Assembly: GCA_903945375.1 (NCBI GenBank)
Contig: CAJAVP010000060.1
Coordinates: 1 to 37,094, forward strand
Length of the DNA: 37,094 nucleotides
DNA from: an uncultured Methylococcaceae bacterium
GTDB taxonomy: Bacteria; Pseudomonadota; Gammaproteobacteria; Methylococcales; Methylomonadaceae
Direction: 5' to 3'
Of the stretch, positions 646 to 30,512 are shown one piece after another (position 1 is the first letter of the stretch; each line of letters begins with the position of its first letter). Both the position numbers and the translations under genes were made by a program. The notes beneath the pieces were generated by a model. That model was not told the DNA's origin. It did no database searches and saw nothing but the letters and a program-made list of their open reading frames with translations.

Positions 646-2086
646 CTAGATCACCAAATTTATAGGTCAAAACTGTTATCCATCATTAATACCTATTAGG
701 AGCTAACTTGTGACTACATTTTATCTACCACTAGAAGAAGCAAATAAATATGATCCGTCGTTTAATATAAACAGACCGGAATTCGCTAAACTAAAAAGTG
801 ATTTTAATGGTTGCACTGTTTTTCACAGGTTGAACATTGAGCACCGTAATTATTTAGAAAATCAAAATATTTTGGATTGGTTCGATTTTGTTATTGTTCA
901 TCCCAAAAAAGAGGTGGTTTGTATAAATGAATCGTACATCTATTCTGATGAAACAACCGCGTTGACGTTGAGTCTTCTGAGAGAAAATATTCAAACATTA
1001 CTTCCTGATCAAATTAATATCGTAGAAAACTTAGATGCTGCTCAGGAGCAATTTATAAATTGGTGTGATATTGATAATTATGACGAGAAGAAAATAATCG
1101 ATTTTTTAAAAAATACTATGCAAATTGCTATATTGCCTTCAGTAGACTTTAAGCAAAGGACGCTTACCCGTGATAAGCGATTTAATGAATATTCTACGAA
1201 ATATGGCTTGGTTAGGGAGATAGATTCAGAATTTATTACAATGGATAAAACTAAAAAGGAAATTTATCTTTACGTGAATACCTGTGCAGGTAGCGGAAAA
1301 ACGATTTCAGCGATTTATGCTTATAGACGATTCATTGAGCTTGGTAAAAAGCCGATTTTAGTCTGTTACAATCATCTATTAGGCAACTTATTGCATACTG
1401 CTGTTCATAATAATTCATCTTTTGGTTATGTCGGTACACTTTATAAATTTGCCAATTGGAAAAGACAACAGCTAAAAATAGTCAACGGAATAAAGACCAA
1501 TCAAACTGACGATCATGTTGATATGCTATTAAGTGAACTTGAGAATATAACTATTGCAGACACTGAAAAGTATGATGCTTTAATTATCGATGAAGGACAA
1601 GATTTTCATGATTACTGGGTTGAGTTATTAACGAAGTACTTAAAGCCAGGTGCTAGCATATTGTGGTTTGAGGATGATAGCCAGAACATTCATACGGTGG
1701 ATCGTAACTGTGGCTTAAATAATATCCCTTCAGTTCTTTTGAATAAAATTAATATGCTTCTTCCTCAGGAGATTAATCATAAGCCCAATTATCGCGTTAC
1801 GAAATGTATTGAAGATTTTTTAATTGCTTTTTTCCCGTTCTATACAACATCATTTAACTTAACAAAGCCTCACTTCGAGTATCATCCAGAACCTAGCATC
1901 ATCAGAGTGTTAGGTTGTAAACCACAAATTAATTTTTATCAGGAAGGCAAGCTACTTGATAAATTGAAAGAAAGGCTAGATGACTTAATAAACAAAGATC
2001 ATATCGCATCAAATGATAAGTAACCAGCCAAAAATTTCTGTATAATTTAAAGCTAGTATCTATAGTAATTCACTAAATGAGCCACG

Positions 2087-3105
2087 ATGAAATTTATAAG
2101 CCCATTGTCCCCCGAACAGCAACAGATGCTTCGCGAAATGATGACTTATCACCCGAATGTTCGCTGCCGACGTCGTGCGCATAGCCTTTTGCTAAGTAAT
2201 CGAGGTTACACCATCCGGCAGATTGCCGATATTTTTGAAGTCGAACGCCGTGCGATCAGTTCTTGCATTGATCAATGGGAAGCCAAAGGAGTGATGGGCG
2301 TTTATGACCAGCCCCGCTCGGGTCGCCCGACTCTGTTTACGCCCGCCGAGGCAGCCTTATTGCCTGACTGGGTTGCCCAAGAGCCGCGCCAACTGAAACA
2401 GGCCATCGCTAGACTAAACGAAAAAACCGGTAAAACCGCCAGTTATTCGACCTGTGTGCGCATTTTAAAAAACTCAAGTGGGTTTGGAAGCGCTGTCGGC
2501 ACTCCTTAAAAGACCGTCGCGATGAAAGCGCTTTTCGCCAAGAACAGCAGTTACAAATCCAATTGCACCAAGCCGAAGCCAAGCAGCAATTGGCGGTTTA
2601 TTACTTTGATGAAACCGGTTTTACTACGACACCTTGTGTGCCTTATGCGTGGCAAAAACCAGCTGAAACGCTTTGCTTGCCCAGCCAGAACAGCAAGCGG
2701 TTGAATATCCTTGGCTTTTTAAACAAACAGAACGACAGCTTTTTTTATACGCAAGAAGGGAATGTCACTTCTCAAACCGTCATCAATGCCTTTGAAGCCT
2801 TTGGGCAACGCTATGCCGAACACTACGCCAAAACACAACAACCCTGTGTCGTTATTCTTGATAATGCGTCGGTTCATACCAGTAAAGCTTTTTTAGCCGT
2901 CCGGGAAAATTGGTATAGCTAGGGGGTGTTAGTGCATTATTTACCCCCTTACAGCCCAGAACTCAACTGGATTGAGATCCTCTGGCGAAACATAAAATAC
3001 CAATGGCTCCCTTTTGATGCTTATCTCAGTTATGCGCATCTCAAAGCGGCAGTTCTTGAAATACTCGCTCAGGTCGGCGAAAAATATACTATAACTTTTG
3101 CCTGA
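2087..3105 (+). pseudogene. IS630-family transposase, -1 frame change plus amber codon
   Basis: An N-terminal helix-turn-helix region (YTIRQIADIFEVERRAISS) is read from the ATG at 2087. The catalytic part is in the -1 frame and shows FDETGF (first Asp), VILDNASVHTSKAF (second Asp) and LPPYSPELNWIE (Glu), the DDE triad of IS630 transposases. The frames connect at the A AAA AAC heptamer at 2467-2473, which would allow ribosomal -1 slippage. A TAG at 2920-2922 then stops the second frame; the codons beyond it, up to TGA at 3103-3105, still encode the conserved Glu region. The slippery site may be functional design; the amber codon looks like inactivation. About 37 residues separate the second Asp and the Glu. 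Confidence 0.88.
2467..2473 (+). promoter_or_regulatory. Possible -1 ribosomal frameshift heptamer (A AAA AAC)
   Basis: The heptamer is in phase with the upstream transposase frame (TTA AAA AAC), matching the X XXY YYZ rule for -1 slippage. A -1 shift here joins the DNA-binding half to the catalytic half without loss of conserved sequence, and the zero frame stops soon after at 2507-2509. An alternative is a simple one-base loss in the A run. Confidence 0.55.
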
Positions 3106-3168
3106 TTACTTATAGAAATTATTAGTTGTTTGCCTGATTCTAAAAATGACCCCAGCCATTCGTTAATA

Positions 3169-3257
3169 AGTAATCAGGCTTAAGTTTTAGTACATTTTTA
3201 AAACGTAACTCGTTGAAAATAAAAATACTGCCGCGCTAAAAAATTTGGCTGATTACT
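3169..3257. mobile_element. 89-bp non-autonomous element (MITE) with IS630-like ends
   Basis: The left end AGTAATCAGGC and the right end GGCTGATTACT are inverted repeats nearly identical to those of the neighbouring IS630 element. TA flanks both sides (3167-3168 and 3258-3259). No coding capacity is present. Excision with one TA restores the helicase frame, which shows that it is an insertion. It was probably mobilised by an IS630 transposase of the neighbouring type. A degenerate relative lies at 17784. Confidence 0.88.
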
Positions 3258-3620
3258 TACTAGAAAAATACAACTATTCAGTACCTTATCCGTATAAGCT
3301 TAATCAGATTGGCAATTATCGATTGAAACGAACAACCGGTGAATATAAAAACGGTGTAAAAGTTTATAAAGAAGAAGATGGCATACTTTGTGAAAGCGTT
3401 ACCCGATACAAAGGCCTTGAAGCACCTGTTGTTCTGGTGACAGATGTTGAAATTCCTAATGGCTTTTCGCCCCATGACTGGGTTCAGTTTTTATATTGCG
3501 CGTTGACAAGGGCAAAAATGCACTTAGAAGTTTTTGTGTGCAGTGATGGAAATATGAGTAAGTGTTTTAAAGCGATCGATGACTCAATAGTTGTCAAACA
3601 ATAAAAATTTTTGCCAGCAC

Positions 3621-4955: not shown

Positions 4956-5744
4956 ATGACTATTACAAACATTAATAAAGTGCATTACGTTGCGGTCACC
5001 CATTCCGGTAAGCGTTATCGGCAAAATCAGAATGCCTTATTATTGGCAGGAACCGTGCAGCAAACAGCCAATTTTTGGCAAGGTGAACTAAGCCTGGATA
5101 AACCGTTGCGTTTTGCCATCGCAGACGGCGTCGGAGGATTGCCCAATGCGGCAAAAGCCAGCCGTATTTTGTTGCAGGAGCTGGCAGAACTTGATCAAAC
5201 ACAACCCCAGTTATTGCCACGACAACGCTTGATCCCATTACATAATTGCTTGGTGAAAGCTTGCAAAAGCGATCGGACATTGCAGAATGGTGGCTCCACG
5301 CTGATTACCACCGAAATTGCAACGGATGGGCAGATTAGCCTTTGGCATGTGGGGGATTCGCGTGGCTATCTCTATAGTCCTCATGGCTTACGCCGACTAA
5401 CCGACGACCACACGCTGGCATTTTGTCTGAATCGTTCTGGTAATTATTCAACAGCCCAGCAGCAAGCAATAGCAAACACCCCGCTAGGCTAGGCATTGGA
5501 TAATTTGTTTATCTTTTCGCAGGCCGCCGAAGAACCGTTTATTGGCTTGCAACATTTGAAGCTATTACCGGACGAGGTTTTGTTGTTGGTCAGCGACGGT
5601 GTGACGCTGTATTTGTCAGATGACGCATTGGCGGCTTGTTTTGCCAGCGCCAATCTTGTCGCTAATGTTCGACGACTATTTGATGAAGTGATAGAAGCCG
5701 GTGCTGAAGATAATTTGAGCGTGGTGGCAATCGTTGTGACATAA
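4956..5744 (+). pseudogene. PP2C-type protein phosphatase with in-frame amber codon
   Basis: A PP2C (PPM) fold is clear: ADGVGG (residues 56-61), LWHVGDSRGYLY (129-140), LVSDGVTLYLSDD, and a final GAEDNLSVVAIVV, which supply the metal-binding Asp residues. Such enzymes remove phosphate from Ser/Thr of proteins with Mn or Mg. The frame is interrupted by TAG at 5490-5492 (codon 179); the same frame continues to TAA at 5742-5744. The partial paralogue at 10333 has Gln (CAG) at that position, so a single C-to-T change explains the stop. Without suppression the protein loses its last third, including two metal ligands. No protein kinase gene is seen in the window. Confidence 0.85.
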
Positions 5745-5903: not shown

Positions 5904-6485
5904 ATGAATACTACAGATGCCTTGGATTATGTGATCAACGAATTAATAAAGTTCGACCAAAAAATGCGAGATAACACAGACTATTTAAAATTAGAAAATT
6001 TAAATAATGGTTATTGTTACAAAATATTCGCTAGAAATGCTTATGTTGGTGTTTGGAAAGAAAATCAGAAAGCATTCATGATTTCAAGATACAAAATGGG
6101 CGCTAATCCCTTCCTATTTGATGAGTACCATTGGGATACAAATGATGAAAAAAACTTTCCTTTCGGCACCGTTAAGCCAATTGAGCTGATTGAAAAATTC
6201 CCATTCGAATTAAAAGAAAATTATAGCGACAGTGAAGCACAAAAAATCCTTAATTATCTTGATATTTTAGAGGAAAACAATCCGGTTATACCTGGCATTA
6301 ATAGCATACAACATAGAAAGCAATCGGCTATCCAATGGGAATTAAAGCAAGAAGCCAAACGAAAATTTGCCGCGTGGCTCAAGCAACAGGGAATATCTAT
6401 TGCCGATTACACAAAACAACCTAGAAAGAGAAAGATAAGCCTAATGAAAACATATGGCGATATCTTAAAATTAACGGAAAATTGA
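5904..6485 (+). CDS. Unknown protein, fam1 copy A
   Basis: 193 residues, soluble, rich in Lys, Glu and aromatic residues; I recognise no domain. Conserved blocks shared with the copy at 13448 are NAYVGVW, KAFMISRYKMG, EYHWDTND, NFP.GT.KP.ELIEKFPF and a C-terminal charged helix. The TGA stop overlaps the ATG of the next gene (TGATG), implying translational coupling with fam2. The same pair occurs in copy B, so fam1 and fam2 probably work together. Function cannot be assigned. Confidence 0.8.
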   Translation: MNTTDALDYVINELIKFDQKMRDNTDYLKLENLNNGYCYKIFARNAYVGVWKENQKAFMISRYKMGANPFLFDEYHWDTNDEKNFPFGTVKPIELIEKFPFELKENYSDSEAQKILNYLDILEENNPVIPGINSIQHRKQSAIQWELKQEAKRKFAAWLKQQGISIADYTKQPRKRKISLMKTYGDILKLTEN

Positions 6486-7378
6486 TGACTATGAACGACG
6501 AATGGCAAGATAAGAGAATAATAATGACACCCAAGCAACGCGAAATATTGGTGAATTTACATGAACAATTTTGTAGATTGGAATCTTATTTAGGTACTCT
6601 GCTATGTCAAGTGGATGGATTACCAGAGCACTTTGACTCGTTTCAAGATAAAGAAGACGAAGTGTTGGAATTCCCAAAGCATGGTTTTAGCTGTGAGGGC
6701 GAATTCACCGAAGAAGATACCAATGAATGGCTATATTTTAGTAATAGGCTGGCTGCATCTGAACTGTACGACACGCTAAAGAGATTGCATAGAGAAATTT
6801 ATTATGCGAAAGATTACTATGGTGTTGTGCGGCGTCAACTGCATAACTTACCAAAGCACTTTGACTCGGCTCAGGACAATAGCGAATTTAGCACAGATGA
6901 AATTAACGAATTGCTGCGCTTAAATCATAGGCTGGCTGAACTCGAACTGTATTTATGCGATTTGAGCGAAAAAGAATGTGTACATTTAGCCGACCGAGTT
7001 TCCGACACTGATGATGCGCTGGATGACTACGAGATTAATGCGACGCTTCACTTTACGCTACGCGAAGATGATCCGGAATTTGATGAAAATGAAGACAATT
7101 TTTTGGCTCGGCGAAAAATGAGTTTAAAGCGTTTGGACAGGGAATGGGGTCTAGGAGATGGGCAAGATCATCGCGTATCTGCGCTTTCTTTTCCGGGTGG
7201 TCTTAATGAAGCTTCTCATTGCTGGCTATTCCACGACCTTTATGACCACCACTACGGTCTGGAGCAACCGGCTTTAACTCTGCAAGACTGTTTGCGCGTT
7301 GGATCAATCTGGGTGGATGTCGCGGTTCGTCATCAGGCGACGCTGGCTATTAAATCGGGTAAATGGCAAAAATATTAG
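6485..7378 (+). CDS. Unknown protein, fam2 copy A, with internal duplication
   Basis: 297 residues from the ATG at 6485, chosen because it overlaps the fam1 stop and matches the start of copy B (MTMN.EWQDKR). The acidic N-terminal half contains two versions of a block with the motif LP.HFDS.QD followed by an acidic stretch and NRLA.SELY/HRLAELELY; copy B has only one, so an ~80-residue tandem duplication occurred here. The C-terminal half is conserved: REDDPEFDE, WGLGDG.DHRVS, HCWLFHDLYDH and GSIWVDVAVRHQATLAI. His and Asp in FHDLYDH could be functional, but this is a guess. No known domain is recognised. Confidence 0.82.
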   Translation: MTMNDEWQDKRIIMTPKQREILVNLHEQFCRLESYLGTLLCQVDGLPEHFDSFQDKEDEVLEFPKHGFSCEGEFTEEDTNEWLYFSNRLAASELYDTLKRLHREIYYAKDYYGVVRRQLHNLPKHFDSAQDNSEFSTDEINELLRLNHRLAELELYLCDLSEKECVHLADRVSDTDDALDDYEINATLHFTLREDDPEFDENEDNFLARRKMSLKRLDREWGLGDGQDHRVSALSFPGGLNEASHCWLFHDLYDHHYGLEQPALTLQDCLRVGSIWVDVAVRHQATLAIKSGKWQKY

Positions 7379-7526
7379 CCCAGGCAAGCTTAAAGCAAGC
7401 GATGCAGCATTAGGATTAGCGTCGATGACAGGTGGATTTATGTGGAAACTGAACTGCTAGATAGCTTGCTAGGATAGACCAGACAGTTAAGACGAACTTT
7501 TTCGTTTACCTTGTCAATATTACAAC

Positions 7527-7566
7527 TTGCATACGTCTTATCTCGTCGCAGTAACCGCTTATTATG
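7527..7566 (+). promoter_or_regulatory. Conserved upstream motif, copy 1
   Basis: The stretch contains TTGCATACGTC and GTCGCAGTAACCGCTTATTA and is shared, at about 40 bp, with 10609-10647 and 12787-12826, each time about 50 bp before a fam3 start or its remnant. Conservation outside the coding region suggests a promoter or operator. TTGCAT could serve as a -35 box; I cannot define a firm -10 box. Confidence 0.55.
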
Positions 7567-7617
7567 TCTTCCGACACAGTTAAGTCTCAAACCATATATC
7601 AAGAAGAAAATCATCTC

Positions 7618-8037
7618 ATGCCCATGCTAATTGAACATATCGATGCCATTGCCCGTAAAAAACAACGCGATGTATTGTATTTGACGTTTCATTCCAAAAA
7701 ATCTGCCGATATTGGCCTATGGGACGGTACGTCAGACGATTGGGAGCAAAATCCCATGCGTGAAACGGTCTGCCAATGGCTTACGGAACACCATATTATC
7801 TGGCAGCCTTGCGGCTTCGTTGCCGATGTCAACATGATGTGCAGCTATCAAGGGCAAATTTATCTGGACGTGCCGTATGATGAAAACGATCCGATGTATG
7901 AATTAGTCCGCGATTATTTGGAGACCCCCGATGGCAGCATGCGTTTTGAGACAGTCAATTTTTGGTATTTGCCCTTGGCAAAAGCCATGGAGAATGCCCA
8001 TCACGATGAACCGGGCTTTTGGGGAAAAATGGGCTGA
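7618..8037 (+). CDS. Unknown protein, fam3 copy A (frameshifted C-terminus)
   Basis: The start at 7618 (MPMLIEHIDAIARKK) is chosen because it matches copy B exactly, while the more upstream ATG at 7564 lies inside the conserved upstream motif. The 139-residue product is soluble and about 85-90% identical to copy B, with blocks RDVLYLTFHSKKSADIGLWD, PCG.VADVNMMCSY, LDVPYDE and FETVNFWYLPLAKAMENAHH. A run of four G at 8021-8024, where copy B has three, shifts the frame and replaces the last residues, ending the protein early at TGA. Function unknown; the high identity of the copies indicates a recent duplication or gene conversion. Confidence 0.8.
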   Translation: MPMLIEHIDAIARKKQRDVLYLTFHSKKSADIGLWDGTSDDWEQNPMRETVCQWLTEHHIIWQPCGFVADVNMMCSYQGQIYLDVPYDENDPMYELVRDYLETPDGSMRFETVNFWYLPLAKAMENAHHDEPGFWGKMG

Positions 8038-10259: not shown

Positions 10260-10335
10260 TGTTCAGCTTGAAACCAGAATCAGTGTTCAGATTAGATCAG
10301 AATGGGCGTTGTTCAAGTTGGACCAGAATATGCGG
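10260..10335. repeat. Three degenerate tandem repeats, possible end of an IS21-type element
   Basis: Three units beginning TGTTCA at 10260, 10284 and 10310 share the pattern TGTTCA..TTGGACCAGAAT with spacing of 24 and 26 bases. Multiple repeats of this kind occur at the ends of IS21-family elements, so this may be the remaining tip of one. It abuts the 5'-truncated PP2C copy directly, which fits an insertion followed by deletion. No istA or istB gene remains here. Confidence 0.45.
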
Positions 10336-10593
10336 GGGCAGGCACTGGATAATCTGTTCATCTATTCGCAGGCTGCTGAAGAACCGTTTATCGGTTTGCA
10401 ACGCTTTAAGTTATTGCCGGATGAGATTTTACTGTTGGTCAGCGACGGCGTGACCTTGTATTTATCAGATGACGCGCTTGCCGCTTGTCTTGCGGGCACT
10501 GATCTGGTCGCTAATGTCCGGCGGCTGTTTGGTGAAGTCATGGCCGCCGGCGCTGAAGATAATTTGATTGCGGTAGCAATCGTCGTGAAATAA
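10333..10593 (+). pseudogene. 5'-truncated PP2C phosphatase tail (copy B)
   Basis: The segment RGQALDNLFIYSQAAEEPF through EDNLIAVAIVVK is about 85% identical to the last third of the PP2C at 4956-5744. The N-terminal two thirds, with the first metal-binding Asp motif and the GDSRG motif, are absent and replaced by the TGTTCA repeats. An open frame begins at an ATG at 10309 within those repeats, but the protein would lack an active site. It provides the Gln codon that shows the amber of copy A to be a mutation. Confidence 0.85.
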
Positions 10594-12882: not shown

Positions 12883-13311
12883 ATGCCTATGCTAATCGAA
12901 CATATCGATGCTATTGCCCGTAAAAAACAACGCGATGTATTGTATTTGACGTTTCATTCCAAAAAATCTGCCGATATTGGCCTTTGGGACGGTAGCTCAG
13001 ATAATTGGGAGCAAAATCCCATGCGCGAGACAGTCTGTCAATGGCTGACGGATCACCAGATTTCCTGGAAGCCTTGCGGTTATGTTGCCGATGTCAACAT
13101 GATGTGCAGCTATCGGGGACAAATTTATCTGGACGTGCCGTATGATGAAAGTGATCCGCAGTATGTGTTAGTGCGTGATTATTTAGAGAATCCTGATGGC
13201 AGTATGCGTTTTGAAACAGTCAATTTTTGGTATTTGCCCTTGGCAAAAGCCATGGAAAACGCCCATCACGATGAACCGGGCTTTTGGGAAAAATGGGCTG
13301 AAAATTTTTAA
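12883..13311 (+). CDS. Unknown protein, fam3 copy B (intact)
   Basis: 142 residues, start supported by AGGAAA about seven bases upstream. It is nearly identical to fam3 copy A but ends GFWEKWAENF, which is likely the ancestral C-terminus. Conserved Trp, Asp and Cys residues (LWDGSSDNWEQNPMRETV, PCGYVADVNMMC) suggest a compact fold; no known domain is recognised. It precedes fam1 and fam2, whereas in copy A it follows them. Confidence 0.82.
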   Translation: MPMLIEHIDAIARKKQRDVLYLTFHSKKSADIGLWDGSSDNWEQNPMRETVCQWLTDHQISWKPCGYVADVNMMCSYRGQIYLDVPYDESDPQYVLVRDYLENPDGSMRFETVNFWYLPLAKAMENAHHDEPGFWEKWAENF

Positions 13312-13447
13312 CTGGCATCACAAAAATGCATCTTTTCTAAGGGAAAATTTAGCAGCCTAAAGCGGGTCAATCGTGCCAGTCAGATAGTAAACATTAACGG
13401 TCTATCTCAAACCTAATAACGCTAAAATCAATAGAGCCAGAATAACA

Positions 13448-13909
13448 ATGGAAATGGAAAATACAAACTACATGAAAATGGAGAATTTAACGGATGGATA
13501 TGGTTATAAAATTTTAGCCAGAAATGCTTATGTAGGTGTTTGGATAACCAAGATGAAAGCATTCATGATTTCAAGATACAAAATGGGCGATTATCCTTTT
13601 TTATTTTATGAATACCATTGGGATACGAATGATGCAATCAATTTCCCTTATGGAACTGCTAAGCCAATGGAACTAATAGAAAAATTTCCTTTTAAAATAA
13701 AAGACGAGTACACCGATGCAGAGTCCAAACAAATTATTCATTATCTTGACGAATTAGAGGAAATCAATCCAGTCACGCCAGGAATAAATACTTTACAGCA
13801 AAGAAAACAAGCGGCTATCAATTGGGAAAAAAGGCTAGAAGCCAAACGATGTTTGGCTAGGGAACTCGAACAACAAGGCATTTCTTGCCGACTACGAAAA
13901 ACTGCTTAA
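13448..13909 (+). pseudogene. fam1 copy B, C-terminus lost by a 2-base deletion
   Basis: The 153-residue frame aligns with fam1 copy A from residue 20 on (MENTNYMKMENL against DNTDYLKLENL). After GIS the frame diverges: copy A has TCTATTGCCGA where this copy has TCTTGCCGA near 13883-13890, so two bases are missing and the last ~28 residues are replaced by CRLRKTA. In the restored frame the homology continues to the fam2 start (ADYEKLLKER). The short protein may be partly functional, since the conserved core remains; I call it a damaged gene with this reservation. It also lacks the first ~19 residues of copy A. Confidence 0.65.
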
Positions 13910-13961
13910 AGAGAGGAAGTCTAATATAAGCAAATGGCGATGTTTTAGAATCGAGTGGCTG

Positions 13962-14621
13962 ATGACCATGAACGTCGAATGGCAAGATAAGAGAGTAATA
14001 ATGACACCCAAACAACGCGAAATATTAGTAAATTTTCAGGAACAAATTTGTAACTTGGAATCTTACCTTGGCAGTATGCGGCGTCAACTGCGTGAATTAC
14101 CAAAGCACTTTGACTCGGCTCAGAACAAAAGCGAATTCACCACAGACGAAATCAGCGAATTGCTGCGCTTTAATGATAGGCTGGCTGAGATTGAACACTA
14201 CTTATGCGATTTGGGCGCAAAAGAAGATTTACATGTCGCAGCTCGTGTTTCTGATAGTAATGATGCTTTAAATGATTACGAAATTGATGCGACGCTTTAC
14301 TTTACCCTACGCGAAGATGATCCCGAATTTGATGAAGATGACGACAATTTTTTGACCCAGCGAACCATGAGCCTAAAACATTTAGATAAGAAATGGGGCT
14401 TAGGCGATGGACGGGATCATCGGGTATCTATCCCCCATTTTCCAGGCAGTCTTAATGAAATAGCCCATTGCTGGTTATTCCACGATCTTTATGATCACAG
14501 CTATGGTCTTGAGCAACCGGCTTTAAGTCTACAAGACTGTTTACGCGTTGGCTCAATCTGGGTGGATGTTGCGGTTCGTCATCAGGCGACGCTGGCTATT
14601 AAATCGGGTAAGTGGCACTAA
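13962..14621 (+). CDS. Unknown protein, fam2 copy B
   Basis: 219 residues, starting MTMNVEWQDKRVIMTPKQRE, matching fam2 copy A. It has a single LPKHFDSAQ block, so it probably shows the ancestral layout before the duplication in copy A. The C-terminal half with REDDPEFDEDDDNF, HCWLFHDLYDH and the VGSIWVDVAVRHQ tail is highly conserved. Function unknown. Confidence 0.82.
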   Translation: MTMNVEWQDKRVIMTPKQREILVNFQEQICNLESYLGSMRRQLRELPKHFDSAQNKSEFTTDEISELLRFNDRLAEIEHYLCDLGAKEDLHVAARVSDSNDALNDYEIDATLYFTLREDDPEFDEDDDNFLTQRTMSLKHLDKKWGLGDGRDHRVSIPHFPGSLNEIAHCWLFHDLYDHSYGLEQPALSLQDCLRVGSIWVDVAVRHQATLAIKSGKWH

Positions 14622-15862: not shown

Positions 15863-17155
15863 ATGAACCATAGCCCAGCAGAAGCCCTTCTCTATCATCT
15901 GGTAAACCGCTACCTGCGCCAGCTAATGCCGGCTGAATATCTTGCTGAATTGCAAGACCGTTTTACATCAGCTGAACAACAGGTCAAGGATCATCCTGAA
16001 ACCTTGGCCTGGAGCCAGCGGGTCTTGTGGTTATCGCACTGGGAGGGTGTGTTGTCCAGCAATCCCCAACCTGATGCCATTGTTGCAACACTGTCCACCG
16101 CATTGCTGAACAATAAAAAAGTAACCCTTCGCTACCAAGGCAACGATAAAGCTTTTCAGTTCAACTTGTTTGGTTTGATTAAGCGCGATCAGAATTTATT
16201 GGTTGTGGGTTCTTACTGGCAGTACAACGACCCGTTCGTTCTGGCCGTGCGCAAGATTGAAGACATTAGCTTGACGGATTATCCTGCCGTTCAGCCTGAG
16301 CCGGATTTTAACGTAACAGATTTTATGTACAGGCAATTGAATTTTCATCATGCTCAGGAAAAACTCGACTGCTTGCACATTGAGTTTTCTGAAGAATTGT
16401 ACAGCTATGTCCAGAATCATCTTCCTGAAGCGGACAAGATCGAAATGATTGCACCGACTGATTATCATCATGACGATTATTTTTTACTGAAAGCGCAAGG
16501 CGTTTTCGATGGCGAGCGATTGCGTCAGTGGATCAGCGGCTTTGGGCATAAAGCGCAAGTATTAAAGCCGGATGATTTACGTTTGGTAATGGAACAGTGG
16601 CGGCTTGATACCCGCCTCAATTTGTTGAATGCAACTGAATCTAAACGCTGTTTAAATCGCGAAATACAGCGCTGCCTGCGTAACAATCAGATGAGCTTTG
16701 GGCTGCTCACTCTTGATCTGGATCATTTCAAGCAGGTTAACGATGGTAATGGTCATGATTTCGGTGACAAAGTTCTTCTGGAAGTTGCCAACTGTATTCG
16801 TATCTATGACGAGGCGGCACGGGATGGTGGTGAAGAATTCAGCATTCTATTACCTGACACCAACGCAGCGGAAGCATTGAAAGTCGCCGAACGTATCCGC
16901 GATGCCATTGAAAAGCTACAACTGGTTAATGATGATGGCAATGTTGTGTCGGTAACCGCCAGTATTGGTTTATCGATCTATCCTGATGATTTGCCGGATG
17001 AGCTAAAAACAAGGATTGAGCAAGGCGATGAGATAGCCCAATTAAGTCAATCCATTGCTGATGCTATTTTTCATCAAGCTGACCAGGCGCTTTACCAAGC
17101 CAAAGAACAGGGACGAAATCGGGTTTGTCGGGCGGGTAATGGTTTAGGCGAATAA
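15863..17155 (+). CDS. WYL-GGDEF fusion protein, probable diguanylate cyclase
   Basis: 430 residues. Residues about 73-140 (ALLNNKKVTLRYQGN, NLFGLIKRDQNLLVVGSYW, AVRKIEDISLTDYP) match a WYL domain in which the WYL tripeptide is NLL; residues about 168-245 (LHIEFSEELYSYV, RLRQWISGFGHKAQVLKPDDLR) match the WYL C-terminal extension. Residues about 250-422 are a GGDEF domain with LTLDLDHFKQVND, the active-site GGEEF (322-326) and an RxxD inhibitory site (RIYD, 313-316), so cyclic di-GMP synthesis with product feedback is likely. No helix-turn-helix precedes the WYL domain, unlike in WYL transcription factors. WYL domains are thought to bind nucleic-acid or nucleotide-type ligands; that one controls the cyclase here is inference. 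Confidence 0.85.
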   Translation: MNHSPAEALLYHLVNRYLRQLMPAEYLAELQDRFTSAEQQVKDHPETLAWSQRVLWLSHWEGVLSSNPQPDAIVATLSTALLNNKKVTLRYQGNDKAFQFNLFGLIKRDQNLLVVGSYWQYNDPFVLAVRKIEDISLTDYPAVQPEPDFNVTDFMYRQLNFHHAQEKLDCLHIEFSEELYSYVQNHLPEADKIEMIAPTDYHHDDYFLLKAQGVFDGERLRQWISGFGHKAQVLKPDDLRLVMEQWRLDTRLNLLNATESKRCLNREIQRCLRNNQMSFGLLTLDLDHFKQVNDGNGHDFGDKVLLEVANCIRIYDEAARDGGEEFSILLPDTNAAEALKVAERIRDAIEKLQLVNDDGNVVSVTASIGLSIYPDDLPDELKTRIEQGDEIAQLSQSIADAIFHQADQALYQAKEQGRNRVCRAGNGLGE

Positions 17156-18128: not shown

Positions 18129-19175
18129 ATGACAGATGAACAACTAGAAGAAATATTAAAAGAATCAAGACGATTAACCATTCCCGCTGTTGAAAAAAAT
18201 ATATTTTCTATTGGTGGGCGTGGTCATTATGAAAATCCGATTAGTGATCTCCTCGCATTCTTCTTGGATGTACACGAGATTCATGGATTTGGTGATCTAG
18301 TCCTGAGATCACTCAATGAAGCTGCTGGACTATCTTCGGATGATATTGACCTAATTGCAACGCCTCAGAGAGAAGTGCAAACAACTGATGAAAAAAGGAT
18401 TGATATTCTGTTTGAGGGTGAGCGATATGTAACTATGATCGAAAATAAGATTCGTCATTGGGCTGCCAACCCATTTGGCAGTTACGATGCTTATCTAAAC
18501 GAAAAATATCACAACAAAAGAATTAATCGAGTGCTTTTATCTATCCGTAAAGAAACGCCGCCAGAAGGTTGGGTTTCATTAACCTACAAAAACTTATTAG
18601 CCCGTATTAGAGAAAACCTTGGTGATTACATCATTAAGAATCCGTACTCTAAATGGCTAGTTTTATTTCGTGAATTTCTCCTTAATATTGAGCAAGAGTG
18701 TGAGCCAGACCCTATGACTAACGAACGATTTGAATTTGCATATAAAAATTATCAAGCCATATACGAACTGCAAAAAATCGCAATTGGCTACATTGACGAA
18801 TTACTGAAAAGGGGGCTTGATGCAATAAGATTGGATTCTGATACAGAAGAATCAGCAGTATTTAGCAAAAAACAAGTCTGGGGTGAACATGGTACTGCGT
18901 TACTGTTTCATCGTAAGAATTGGGGAGGTCAATCAAATATCACGTTGCTGCTGAGTCCGACTGGCTTGTTCCTTGTGCGGCTTTATGTGTATGACATTCA
19001 AGATTGCGATGTTCCCAAACTTCGAGAAATGATAGTTAATGATAAGTATATGAAATTCTGGACGGAATCAAAAACCATCCGTTGCTTTGGAGATTTCGAG
19101 AATTCAAAATTGGATGCCATTCTTAAAGAAATTCAGGAAGTCGCACAAATACTAAATAGCTATTATTCCAGTTAA
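18129..19175 (+). CDS. PD-(D/E)XK nuclease family protein (PDDEXK_4 type)
   Basis: 348 residues. The N-terminal NPISDLLAFFLD block, then EKRIDILFEG (Asp92) and VTMIENKI (Glu105, Lys107), form a PD-(D/E)XK catalytic core of the PDDEXK_4 type; the following SYDAYLNEKYHNKRINRVLLSI is also typical. The C-terminal half (about 200-348) is unassigned and may recognise a target or partner. Enzymes of this type probably cut DNA with Mg, and many are found in defence loci. AGGA lies upstream of the ATG. The sirtuin gene follows after only 19 bp, so both are likely co-transcribed. Confidence 0.85.
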   Translation: MTDEQLEEILKESRRLTIPAVEKNIFSIGGRGHYENPISDLLAFFLDVHEIHGFGDLVLRSLNEAAGLSSDDIDLIATPQREVQTTDEKRIDILFEGERYVTMIENKIRHWAANPFGSYDAYLNEKYHNKRINRVLLSIRKETPPEGWVSLTYKNLLARIRENLGDYIIKNPYSKWLVLFREFLLNIEQECEPDPMTNERFEFAYKNYQAIYELQKIAIGYIDELLKRGLDAIRLDSDTEESAVFSKKQVWGEHGTALLFHRKNWGGQSNITLLLSPTGLFLVRLYVYDIQDCDVPKLREMIVNDKYMKFWTESKTIRCFGDFENSKLDAILKEIQEVAQILNSYYSS

Positions 19176-19194: not shown

Positions 19195-19941
19195 ATGCAA
19201 TTTGACGACGAACTGCTCAACCGCTTACGCCAAGCAAAACGGCTGGTATTCTTTACCGGTGCCGGAACTTCAACAGAAAGTGGTGTCCCGACTTTTCGGG
19301 ATGAGCAAAACAGTCTCTGGATTAATTTTGATGCAACCCGTTTTGCCACAGAATCGGGATTCCGCGCTAATCCAGGCCAGGTTTGGCAATGGTACGCAGA
19401 ACGCCGCCAGCAATTACAAACCCTATCACCTAATCCGGCACATCGGGTGATGGCGGCTTGGCAAGATAAAACCGCTGGTGTCACGGTCATTACCCAAAAC
19501 ATCGATGGTTTTCATCAACAGGCGGGTAGCCGTGACGTGATCGAATTGCATGGCAATATTACCGCGAACAAATGCGTTGATTTTGGTCATGTCGCCCCAA
19601 TGGATGTGAATCTTAGTGACCAGCCGCCGCATTGCCAGCAATGTGGAAGTCTGTTGCGCCCGGATATCGTATGGTTTGGTGAAGCACTGCCCGCAGTGGC
19701 CTATCATTTTGCGGAACAACTCTGTTTTGATTGCGAAGTGTTTGTCTGCATCGGTTGTTCCATGGAAGTCTACCCGGCTGCCAGTTTGCCGTTCAATGCC
19801 GCACGCTCTGGTGCTTATCTGATTCAGATCAATCCTCAAGCCACGCCGTTAGATGAGGTCGCTGACTGCAATCTGTACGGCAAAGCGGGTGAAATTCTGC
19901 CACAGTTATGGCAAGCCGTTTGGCAAGAGCCGCTGCCATGA
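19195..19941 (+). CDS. Sirtuin (SIR2 family NAD-dependent protein deacylase) 1
   Basis: 248 residues. NAD-binding GAGTSTESG (22-30), FRDE, the TQNIDGFH motif (100-106), and the catalytic His119 in ELHG are present. Tyr67 and Arg70 (WYAERR) match the Tyr-x-x-Arg pair that recognises succinyl or malonyl groups in CobB/SIRT5-type sirtuins. The zinc site is unusual: the second pair CQQC (147-150) is intact, but the first pair has Cys127 followed by VDF rather than a second Cys; His132 could substitute. The enzyme would remove acyl groups from lysine using NAD. AAGGA lies six bases before ATG. The TGA stop overlaps the next start. Confidence 0.92.
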   Translation: MQFDDELLNRLRQAKRLVFFTGAGTSTESGVPTFRDEQNSLWINFDATRFATESGFRANPGQVWQWYAERRQQLQTLSPNPAHRVMAAWQDKTAGVTVITQNIDGFHQQAGSRDVIELHGNITANKCVDFGHVAPMDVNLSDQPPHCQQCGSLLRPDIVWFGEALPAVAYHFAEQLCFDCEVFVCIGCSMEVYPAASLPFNAARSGAYLIQINPQATPLDEVADCNLYGKAGEILPQLWQAVWQEPLP

Positions 19942-20420
19942 AGCCACATTTCCCAAAAGTCCGCCGCCGTATTCAGCGTGCTTTTTTAGCTTGGTATGCC
20001 AAACATCAGGACACAGTACCGTTGCCATTACAGCATGTCAGACGCAAAAATGATTATTTAGCGTTTACTTTAACGGGTTTACATCCGGCGATTACGTTCG
20101 GCCTGACTTGGGAATTGGTTGTTTATGTGGAATGGCAAGGAATATGTTGGGATTTATTGGCAAGTTTTGAATCCTGGCCCCGACACAGTGCTGATGGCTA
20201 TTATTGCGAGTTGTGCAAGCCAGAAGCACGGACACTTTTTCACAGCCGCAAAGCCTTATGGCAAGACCAAGTGTTCGAGCCTTTTTTGCAATGGCTAAAC
20301 GAAAGCTTGCTGCCGTCGAGATTCTTGGGTTTGTATACCGTTGGACGGGCAAGCACTTACGCGAAACTATTGATTGAACCTGATCCAGAAGCTTATAGGA
20401 TGTTGCCACTTTGGATATAG
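19938..20420 (+). CDS. Unknown protein translationally coupled to sirtuin 1
   Basis: 160 residues. The ATG at 19938 is chosen because it overlaps the sirtuin stop as ATGA and begins MKPHFPKVRRR. The N-terminus is basic; the middle has LTGLHPAITFGLTWELVVYVEW and WDLLASFE.WP, and a pair of Cys in YYCELCKPEA. I recognise no domain. Its place between two sirtuins makes it a candidate partner or substrate, which is inference only. Confidence 0.75.
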   Translation: MKPHFPKVRRRIQRAFLAWYAKHQDTVPLPLQHVRRKNDYLAFTLTGLHPAITFGLTWELVVYVEWQGICWDLLASFESWPRHSADGYYCELCKPEARTLFHSRKALWQDQVFEPFLQWLNESLLPSRFLGLYTVGRASTYAKLLIEPDPEAYRMLPLWI

Positions 20421-20503
20421 GAGAAACCGACAGTTGCTAGCGACTCACAGACACATTGTCCTGTTACCCTGAATTTCTCCAATAATTGAAGTGGATTGAC
20501 AAC

Positions 20504-21274
20504 ATGGACTTTAGCGACGACTTATTGAAAACCTTGCTTCACGCAAAGCATATTGTAGTTTTTACCGGAGCTGGCATGTCGGCAGAAAGCGGTATAGCCA
20601 CTTTCCGAGATGCTGGCACAGGGCTTTGGGAACAATACGACCCTTGTGTGCTGGCTAGTCCTCAAGGCTATCGTGCGGACAAGGCTCTGGTCTGGGGCTG
20701 GTATGAATGGCGGCGTATGCAGGTCTTGCGTGCGGAACCGAACGCTGGGCATCTTGCCGTCGCCGAGTTGGCAAAGCGCGTTGAACGGTTGACACTGATT
20801 ACCCAAAATGTCGATGATTTACACGAGCGTTCCGGCAATACCGATGTCGTGCATTTACACGGCAGCCTGCATTCTCCCCGCTGTTTTGCTTGTGCCCGAC
20901 CTTATACATTTACGGACGGCATCCCGGACGAACCGGTTGGCGGGCGTCGTCTGGCTCCACCGCATTGCCAACATTGTAAGGGCCCGATTCGTCCGGGAGT
21001 GGTGTGGTTCGGAGAAGTGCTGTCGGAAGCCGCCTGGAAGCAAGCCGAGCAAGCGGCTTCGCAGTGCGATGTTTTTTTCTCTATCGGCACTTCCTCTTTG
21101 GTTTGGCCGGCTGCACAACTGCCGGTTACGGCTTCTGCAAAAGGCGCCACGGTGATACAAATCAACCCCGGCGCAACGGCATTAGATAGCAAGGCACATT
21201 TCAATTTAAGGGGTAAAGCAGGTGAGATCATGCCAGCATTGCTTGATGCGTTACCCGTGGCGGTTTCTTATTAA
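20504..21274 (+). CDS. Sirtuin (SIR2 family NAD-dependent protein deacylase) 2
   Basis: 256 residues from the ATG at 20504. All key parts are present: GAGMSAESG, ATFRDA, TQNVDDLH, catalytic His119 (HLHG), Tyr67 and Arg70 (WYEWRR), and both zinc pairs, CFAC (127-130) and CQHC (155-158). The Tyr/Arg pair suggests deacylation of acidic acyl groups, as in CobB/SIRT5-type enzymes. It is related to sirtuin 1 along the whole length, so a local duplication is possible. A gap of 83 bp follows the previous stop. An alternative TTG start at 20486 is less likely. Confidence 0.93.
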   Translation: MDFSDDLLKTLLHAKHIVVFTGAGMSAESGIATFRDAGTGLWEQYDPCVLASPQGYRADKALVWGWYEWRRMQVLRAEPNAGHLAVAELAKRVERLTLITQNVDDLHERSGNTDVVHLHGSLHSPRCFACARPYTFTDGIPDEPVGGRRLAPPHCQHCKGPIRPGVVWFGEVLSEAAWKQAEQAASQCDVFFSIGTSSLVWPAAQLPVTASAKGATVIQINPGATALDSKAHFNLRGKAGEIMPALLDALPVAVSY

Positions 21275-29186: not shown

Positions 29187-30512
29187 CTAGAACATCGATA
29201 TGGTTTTCCATGTTTTCGGAAAACCAATTGCATTAAGGCCACGCAGAAGTTTAGTCCACGATACGCGACGTTTACCGCCACGACGGTTTAGCCATTGCAA
29301 AATTATACGCTTTGACCGTTCCAGAAATTGACCAACACGCCTCTTGTTATCAGAGACACCATGATAATTGATCCACCCCTTAATAACCCGAATAACGGTT
29401 TTGAGAACACCAAGCGTGTCCTTCGTATTCAGGTTTTCCCTCAAGAAGCGTCTCATGCCCTTGAGCTTAGCCGCAAATCGATCTCTACGACTCGTGAATT
29501 TCAGTCGCCAGAAACCTTTCAGCGCTAAACCCCAATAGCAGGTGAAGCCGAGAAAATTGAACGATGGTAGTCGTTTTCCTTGCTGATGGGCTATGGATGC
29601 CGCCACGCGACCCGCAGGTATAATCTGGGATTTATCGGCATGCATCTCAAGTCCAGCTTTTGCCAGCCGTTTTGGTAATACCTCATAAAAGCGTTCCGCT
29701 TCACTAAACCGCTCAAACACGAAAACCATGTCATCCGCAAATCTCACCAACTCTACTCGACCATGAATATGCGAGTGCTTAATTGATTCAAACCACTCAT
29801 CAATCACATGGTGCAAGTAGATATTGGCTAAAATTGGCGATAGACTCGAACCCTGTGGACATCCGCAGGTGTTCGCTAAATCATGTTTGCCTTGCCGAAT
29901 GGGCGCTGTAATCAAGATTTCGATCAGCCTTAGAAAGCGACGATCGGATATCTTTCCTCGCAAAATTCTCATCAAAACCTTATGCGGTATTGTGTTGAAG
30001 TATTTGCGGATATCAATCTCAACTATAGCTCCATTTGGATTTTGGTAAGTTGCGCTATTTAATGCCCTTAATGCATCGTGACAATTCTTGCCTGGTCGGT
30101 AACCGTAAGAGCATGGTAGAAATAATGGTTCGTATATCGTGTTTAAGATTACGCTAACGACCATCTGAACTAATTTATCTTCTACACATGAGATCGCCAA
30201 CGGACGAGTACTTCCATCCTCTTTTGGGATTTCGGTTATTCTTGCAGGTTTCGGCTTATATGTGCCACGCCGTATTTTCTGAATGAGACCCGTGAGGTTT
30301 TCATCAAGATTTTTGCCGTAGCTCGCCTTTGTCACTTTATCGATACCGATAGCTTTATTCCCAGCCAGCAACCAGTATTGCTCTTTAAACATATCGACAT
30401 TGATCAGGTGGCCAATGTTGTTAAACACGAGCTGCCGATCTTGCGCCGATAATTCACCTATGCGCTCAAGTTTCGTTGACCATGATATTCTGTCTTCGCT
30501 GTGTACAGTCAT
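29187..30512 (-). CDS. ltrA: Group II intron reverse transcriptase/maturase
   Basis: 441 residues, ATG start. Reverse transcriptase blocks are present: VEIDIRKYFNTIPH, CGCPQGSSLSPILANIYLHHVIDEW and the active site RFADDMV (FADD 258-261). The C-terminus has a maturase (GIIM) region GFWRLKFTSRRDRFAAKLKG and VIKGWINYHGVS. There is no HNH endonuclease domain, as in several bacterial intron classes that use replication forks or hairpins. It is encoded inside the intron and should assist splicing and retrohoming. The frame is intact. Confidence 0.93.
   Translation of the reverse strand: MTVHSEDRISWSTKLERIGELSAQDRQLVFNNIGHLINVDMFKEQYWLLAGNKAIGIDKVTKASYGKNLDENLTGLIQKIRRGTYKPKPARITEIPKEDGSTRPLAISCVEDKLVQMVVSVILNTIYEPLFLPCSYGYRPGKNCHDALRALNSATYQNPNGAIVEIDIRKYFNTIPHKVLMRILRGKISDRRFLRLIEILITAPIRQGKHDLANTCGCPQGSSLSPILANIYLHHVIDEWFESIKHSHIHGRVELVRFADDMVFVFERFSEAERFYEVLPKRLAKAGLEMHADKSQIIPAGRVAASIAHQQGKRLPSFNFLGFTCYWGLALKGFWRLKFTSRRDRFAAKLKGMRRFLRENLNTKDTLGVLKTVIRVIKGWINYHGVSDNKRRVGQFLERSKRIILQWLNRRGGKRRVSWTKLLRGLNAIGFPKTWKTISMF

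Follow-up and report, generated by a model that had tools for sequence, protein, structure and literature searches.

A predicted diguanylate cyclase fused to a WYL regulator core in the order Methylococcales

WYL domains are known to gate transcription and certain enzymes that act on nucleic acids. According to the accessible text of a preprint (PMC12340889), the Caulobacter activator DriD carries a winged helix-turn-helix domain (wHTH, residues 1-70) and a three-helix bundle (3HB, residues 79-133) ahead of its WYL and WCX domains, has no enzyme, and acts at promoters with RNA polymerase; the bundle is described as a trigger driven by single-stranded DNA (ssDNA), to which ligand binding by the WYL domain is relayed. 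PafBC is a heterodimeric transcription activator, and the PafB mutants R211A/R214A, R181A, R181A/R204A/R208A and Y196A lose ssDNA binding (PMC11804915, accessible text). The defence repressors BrxR and CapW, wHTH regulators of defence genes, pair a WYL domain with a C-terminal dimerisation domain (for BrxR, PMC9122601, accessible text), and in WYL-enzyme fusions (Cas3, Mrr-like, HNH, helicases) an enzyme replaces the DNA-binding domain beside WYL (PMC4012209, main text).

Here, we describe a protein (P0001) encoded in a 37,094-nucleotide stretch of DNA, the window, from an uncultured Methylococcaceae bacterium, the host (GCA_903945375.1, contig CAJAVP010000060.1). It resembles DriD in the order of its 3HB, WYL and WCX domains, PafBC in its WYL-WCX fold, BrxR and CapW in having a WYL domain followed by a dimerisation-type domain, and the cyclases WspR, PleD, DosC and SiaD in the sequence and fold of its catalytic domain. 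It is a new architecture built from two well-known modules. Searches of main texts, without supplementary tables, for a WYL domain joined with GGDEF, di-GMP or diguanylate cyclase found no paper describing the fusion; "GGDEF" is absent from the main text of the WYL architecture paper PMC4012209, and the architecture survey PMC6789036 states in its accessible text that it omits architectures with fewer than 100 sequences.

Domain layout and catalytic residues

The gene is a single uninterrupted open reading frame with an ATG start (Table 1). In its product, the GGDEF domain matches PF00990 (E 8.6e-33), and the regulator half scores close to the Pfam cut-offs, with PF13280 (WYL) at 19.4 bits (E 0.0011; cut-off 21.8; 22.9 bits, above it, in a six-frame search) and PF25583 (WCX) at 23.7 bits (E 6.3e-5; cut-off 23.9). 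Among four relatives scanned, PF13280 lies above its cut-off in L025, L028 and L010 and below it in L033 (20.4), and PF25583 lies above its cut-off in L010 (30.0) and below it in L025 (22.5), L028 (18) and L033 (19.2). The PADLOC WYL model PDLC01652 spans residues 69-243 (E 2.3e-16).

Table 1. Features of the WYL-GGDEF gene, with positions in the window.
Feature	Positions	Strand	Basis
WYL-GGDEF gene P0001, 430 aa	15863..17155	+	Open reading frame, translation, Pfam
Predicted three-helix bundle (3HB), residues 3-57	15869..16033	+	Model helices 5-21, 24-42 and 45-53; alignment with regulators
Predicted WYL domain, residues 71-160, Sm-like barrel	16073..16342	+	Pfam, PADLOC, AlphaFold2 model, fold search
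Predicted WCX domain, residues 166-247, last helix continuing into the GGDEF domain	16358..16603	+	Pfam, alignment, model, fold search
Predicted GGDEF diguanylate cyclase domain, residues 248-424	16604..17134	+	Pfam, sequence and fold matches
GGEEF active-site motif, residues 322-326	16826..16840	+	GGEEF in 11/12 aligned family members
RxxD, possible inhibitory site, residues 313-316	16799..16810	+	R and D in 12/12 columns

AlphaFold2 models of residues 1-250 (10 rows) and of the whole protein (8 rows) have mean pLDDT values of 80.8 and 81.4 and pTM values of 0.56 and 0.49, respectively. Besides the three helices of Table 1, the N-half model contains a helix and five strands at residues 72-141 and an alpha-beta domain at residues 171-247. 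Foldseek against the PDB returned DriD as the top match to this model (E 1.1e-10); rows 1-25 are exclusively DriD, PafBC, BrxR or CapW chains, with the BrxR and CapW matches weaker than DriD, and further BrxR and CapW chains appear below row 25 amid unrelated weak rows. Superposed as a whole on DriD, the model fits poorly (TM about 0.34, rmsd 15.8), and we therefore claim the domains rather than an established arrangement of them. The full-protein model resembles solved diguanylate cyclases including 3ign, DosC and WspR among the best 50 matches listed, and WYL is not mentioned in the names of the GGDEF/diguanylate cyclase matches listed. Searched against PDB sequences, a profile of the family's N-half gives weak WYL matches only (best E 0.18), and a profile of ten related regulators gives strong matches to DriD and PafBC that cover WYL and WCX only and leave the N-terminal segment uncovered.

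Residues 60-250 come out as a WYL/WCX pair in both the AlphaFold2 model and the fold search, as the original prediction had proposed, and its description of WYL and WCX running directly into an apparently active GGDEF domain is borne out by Pfam, PADLOC, the model and the conserved residues. It had overlooked residues 3-53, which appear to correspond to the three-helix bundle that lies between wHTH and WYL in DriD. Sequence and predicted structure together confirm a 3HB, a WYL barrel, and WCX and GGDEF domains, the last with its catalytic residues intact, and the transition from WCX to GGDEF is nearly linker-free.

Certain metal- and GTP-binding residues matter in GGDEF domains, and these were compared across the 12 aligned members of the fusion family. 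D285, D287, K290, G297, H298 and F326 are present in all 12, and N293, D294, D302 and GGEE in all except L020; N293 and D302 are, we assume, the counterparts of guanine-contacting residues. The domain is apparently catalytically intact and is predicted to be a diguanylate cyclase. The residue preceding GGEEF is Asp in the window protein and Tyr in 8/12 members. R313 and D316 of RxxD are separated from GGEEF by five residues in 3/12 members and by four in 9/12, and the helix ahead of RxxD lacks four or five residues relative to solved cyclases; because of this shortened helix and variable spacing, product inhibition at RxxD is unsure. Unlike WspR, the family also has about 17 extra residues ahead of the C-terminal ADxALYxAK motif. 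With 36 GGDEF matches in its genome, the host probably uses c-di-GMP signalling. Promoter matches around the gene are about as frequent as in shuffled sequence (8 found, 7.8 expected), and terminator-like sites are more frequent (7 found, 2.5 expected), several of them inside the gene.

Relation to WYL regulators and distribution

A profile of residues 1-250 from the 12 family members was run against the open reading frames of the fetched loci, and aligned end to end with 57 WYL regulators, starting at profile position 13 at the latest and ending 6-41 aa short of their C-termini. Outside this count are two relatives that lack a GGDEF domain and match over less of the profile or less strongly (L108, L103), and three partial fusion genes (L013, L021, L023). 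In the window protein the match begins at residue 1, and all 57 regulators have extra sequence before it, of at least 80 residues in 56 and of 48 residues in the remaining one (L069, cut by a contig end). No GGDEF domain occurs in the open reading frame of any of the 57. In an alignment with 32 regulators, the absent segment precedes residues 3-53, which pair with the helices after that segment. An N-terminal segment present in the relatives is by these alignments shown to be lost from the window protein. From the DriD layout and weak Pfam hits we infer that the lost segment was a wHTH: at E-values up to 1, ten regulators gave HTH_11 in three (best E 0.001), HTH_Tnp_Tc3_2 in three, Arg_repressor in one and HTH_12 in one, the scored hits shown being below cut-off. 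The absence of a DNA-binding domain, likewise proposed earlier, agrees with this missing segment ahead of the 3HB and with the lack of any HTH family among the Pfam matches of the window protein up to E 10. The cyclase is added at the point where the regulators end, and the junction resembles an ordinary GGDEF start (D-x-L-T-x-L-Y-N-R) in 8/12 members and has diverged in the window protein, L008, L009 and L010. Judged by sequence and model, the window protein keeps the core of a DriD/PafBC-type regulator, lacks the DNA-binding domain, and has a predicted cyclase attached at the last WCX helix.

The architecture recurs in relatives within the host's order, as the profile search proposed in the original prediction revealed. 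With a full-length profile, 12 of 301 genomes of the order had matches at E 1e-40 or better, and with the N-half profile 11 of 237 genomes of the family had strong matches, the host and fragments included in the former count and fragments in the latter. Two strict peptide patterns found 11 loci in 84,980 species genomes, one of them a Curvibacter regulator and 10 from methanotrophs (Methylococcaceae MAGs, Candidatus Methylobacter titanis, Methylobacter and Methyloprofundus); with patterns this strict, an independent WYL-GGDEF fusion elsewhere could escape. Across 398 genomes of the phylum, the full-length profile found the host only, a weak negative given that scoring was limited to at most 4 of the up to 75 candidates in each genome. 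Among the rows fetched for the N-half profile, the fusion was likewise found in the host only, both in 369 genomes of the class (at most 7 candidates scored per genome; 18 of 26 non-host rows fetched, the other 8 being open frames of 178-424 codons) and in 398 genomes of the phylum (at most 6 candidates scored per genome). Among candidates scored, the fusion was found only in the host's order. In a tree, 13 fusion rows fall on one side of a branch from 32 regulators with support of 100/100 and a long stem, which fits a single origin, although the tree is unrooted and is no proof of it.

The window gene is 100% identical to a gene in a sister MAG, and neighbours shared by the two are therefore not independent evidence. 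A paralogue in the host (C90) is 73% identical to the window protein; between the two genes dN is 0.17, dS is 1.87 (near saturation) and dN/dS is about 0.09, with like values in the N-half and the GGDEF half, consistent with purifying selection on both. Because it recurs in relatives and is under purifying selection, the fusion is not a product of chance or of an assembly join. Copies of the gene at L013, L017 and L022 are truncated, interrupted or fragmentary, which together with the motif loss in L020 suggests that the gene is dispensable. The WYL-GGDEF protein of L020 (3762-5093) has SEQKF in place of the GGDEF motif and is probably catalytically dead, and the copies at L013 (5779-7059) and L022 (near 6800-7300) are interrupted or decayed with internal stops.

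A viral origin was rejected: 38 pattern matches in IMG/VR included none encoding a relative, and 50,697 phage records gave no match. Three of 72,556 plasmid records match, all annotated as WYL domain proteins.

Gene neighbourhoods

The window gene stands alone, with a metallophosphatase gene 316 bp upstream. Nuclease genes had been offered as its context; the nearest one, encoding a PD-(D/E)XK protein, starts 973 bp downstream and, among fetched stretches, is shared only by the near-identical sister contig, and this part of the original prediction is not supported.

The paralogue C90 closes a tightly packed run of genes (4-bp overlaps or 12-14 bp gaps) that encode, in order, dynamin-like 872 aa, hypothetical 317 aa, dynamin-like 797 aa, GTPase 393 aa, dynamin-like 508 aa and WYL-GGDEF proteins. 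A second locus (L009) encodes a protein 68% identical to the window protein and the same as that of L025 (Candidatus Methylobacter titanis); upstream of its gene, on the same strand and beyond a 301-bp gap and an 86-aa gene, are three GTPase genes that have LeoA-like PADLOC hits and do not cluster with the GTPases of the C90 run. Dynamin_N matches are few, with 8 in the host, 3 of them in the C90 run, and 10 in genome G144, 4 of them (in three genes) at the L009 locus. One WYL-GGDEF copy in G212 has a 785-aa dynamin-like gene about 3.5 kb away. No Dynamin_N match lies near the window copy or the three other G212 copies, nor within 200 kb of a WYL-GGDEF copy on its contig in G110, G156, G064, G138, G190, G294, G214 or G218. 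A link between WYL-GGDEF and dynamin-like GTPase genes, seen in two lineages with a third nearby, is at most suggestive. It is improbable, but worth stating, that the family supplies the second messenger for a dynamin-like GTPase system of the C90 and L009 type, in which a stress sensed by the WYL domain would raise c-di-GMP that acts on membrane-acting GTPases; if so, the GTPase-linked family would be a c-di-GMP counterpart to nucleotide-signalled defence.

Several other genes of the window were recorded. The PD-(D/E)XK protein (18129-19175) matches the candidate defence family PDC-S26 (9.5e-90). Two Sir2 genes (19195-19941 and 20486-21274) flank a gene of cluster c3 (19908-20420), a family of 170-223 aa proteins without a Pfam match that also occurs at L008 (8324-8893) and L017 (9077-9748) and lies near three different WYL-GGDEF loci; an 81-aa piece of a relative adjoins the L017 WYL-GGDEF gene. 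Two pieces about 4.8 kb apart (4956-5492 and 10309-10593) cluster with one PP2C-like gene of L017, as though an insertion with a GmrSD_N gene and further genes had split a PP2C phosphatase gene. Three small genes (clusters c11, c5 and c12) are duplicated with changed order at 5904-8037 and 12883-14621. A helicase-like gene (710-3604; PADLOC NERD+UvrD hit) is seemingly broken by a transposase-like insertion (2087-2922), and a putative reverse transcriptase (29187-30512) resembles a group II intron maturase.

WYL groove, mechanism and significance

Nine residues of the WYL half, Y91, N101, F103, G104, R108, G116, K131, D148 and F149, are invariant in the fusion family (12/12). The PafB positions for ssDNA binding were carried onto the family in an inferred residue register, in which R204 was not placed. 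In this register, the family (n=12) has F, V or C at the place of R181, Tyr in only 1/12 at that of Y196, no basic residue at that of R208, no Arg at that of R211, and Lys in 12/12 at that of R214. Tyr at the position of Y196 and Arg at that of R214 are found in all 32 regulators, of which 22 have Arg or Lys at the position of R208, only one has Arg at that of R211 and only three have Arg at that of R181. The groove appears to be retained but re-cut, which makes a different or modified ligand likelier than plain ssDNA; the same changes could also mean that the sensor has lost its ligand.

We think it rather probable that the protein is a soluble diguanylate cyclase, gated by a ligand and derived from a regulator of the DriD/PafBC type; the output of its signal, once transcription, is probably now a small molecule. 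The WCX domain would form a dimer, a ligand in the WYL groove would rearrange WYL, 3HB and WCX in the manner of DriD, and the terminal WCX helix would relay the change to both GGDEF domains, which would then convert GTP to c-di-GMP. For the two close members that end dynamin-like GTPase runs, a signal linked to membranes or to the GTPase system would be a reasonable first guess.

Among other readings, the WYL groove may bind single-stranded DNA or RNA arising from DNA damage or phage attack, with c-di-GMP as the output; this is unlikely, but carries more weight than the remaining two. DriD and PafBC, the nearest solved relatives, are activated by ssDNA (PMC12340889, PMC11804915, accessible texts), and the window region carries genes matching candidate defence models. 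Four of the five placed PafB positions are lost from the family and the fifth has become Lys, while the regulators keep the Tyr and the last Arg, and in the stretches fetched no other relative has the nuclease neighbour beside it. The R211 Arg is missing from 31/32 of the closest regulators as well, so its loss is not decisive; because the related regulators also depart from PafB, other residues may serve for ssDNA. The earlier proposal of a nucleic-acid or nucleotide signal is weakened by the lost positions.

A WYL domain that senses c-di-GMP or a nucleotide related to it, and so lets the product feed back on the cyclase, is the least probable of these readings. Perception of c-di-GMP has been reported for a WYL transcription factor of Lactiplantibacillus plantarum (by a title cited in PMC13075795), and the usual RxxD inhibitory site may be distorted in the fusion family; RxxD is nevertheless kept throughout the aligned members, and feedback may run through the normal site. 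It is slightly less doubtful, but still improbable, that the WYL/WCX half is a fossil dimerisation scaffold beside a cyclase that is constitutive or regulated by expression. Divergence of the groove residues from the regulators and the decay of several members are in keeping with such a scaffold, whereas the nine invariant residues, and purifying selection on the N-half equal to that on the GGDEF half, indicate a sensor that is apparently maintained.

The fusion family is small. In it, an enzyme that makes a second messenger seems to have received the entire allosteric core of a WYL regulator, with the DNA-binding domain left behind. The rate of a cyclase is easily measured and needs no promoter or RNA polymerase, giving a clean view of signal transmission through WYL, WCX and 3HB, and the fusion offers an enzymatic read-out for the identity of the WYL ligand. 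Should that ligand be a nucleic acid, the fusion would couple DNA damage or phage attack to c-di-GMP.
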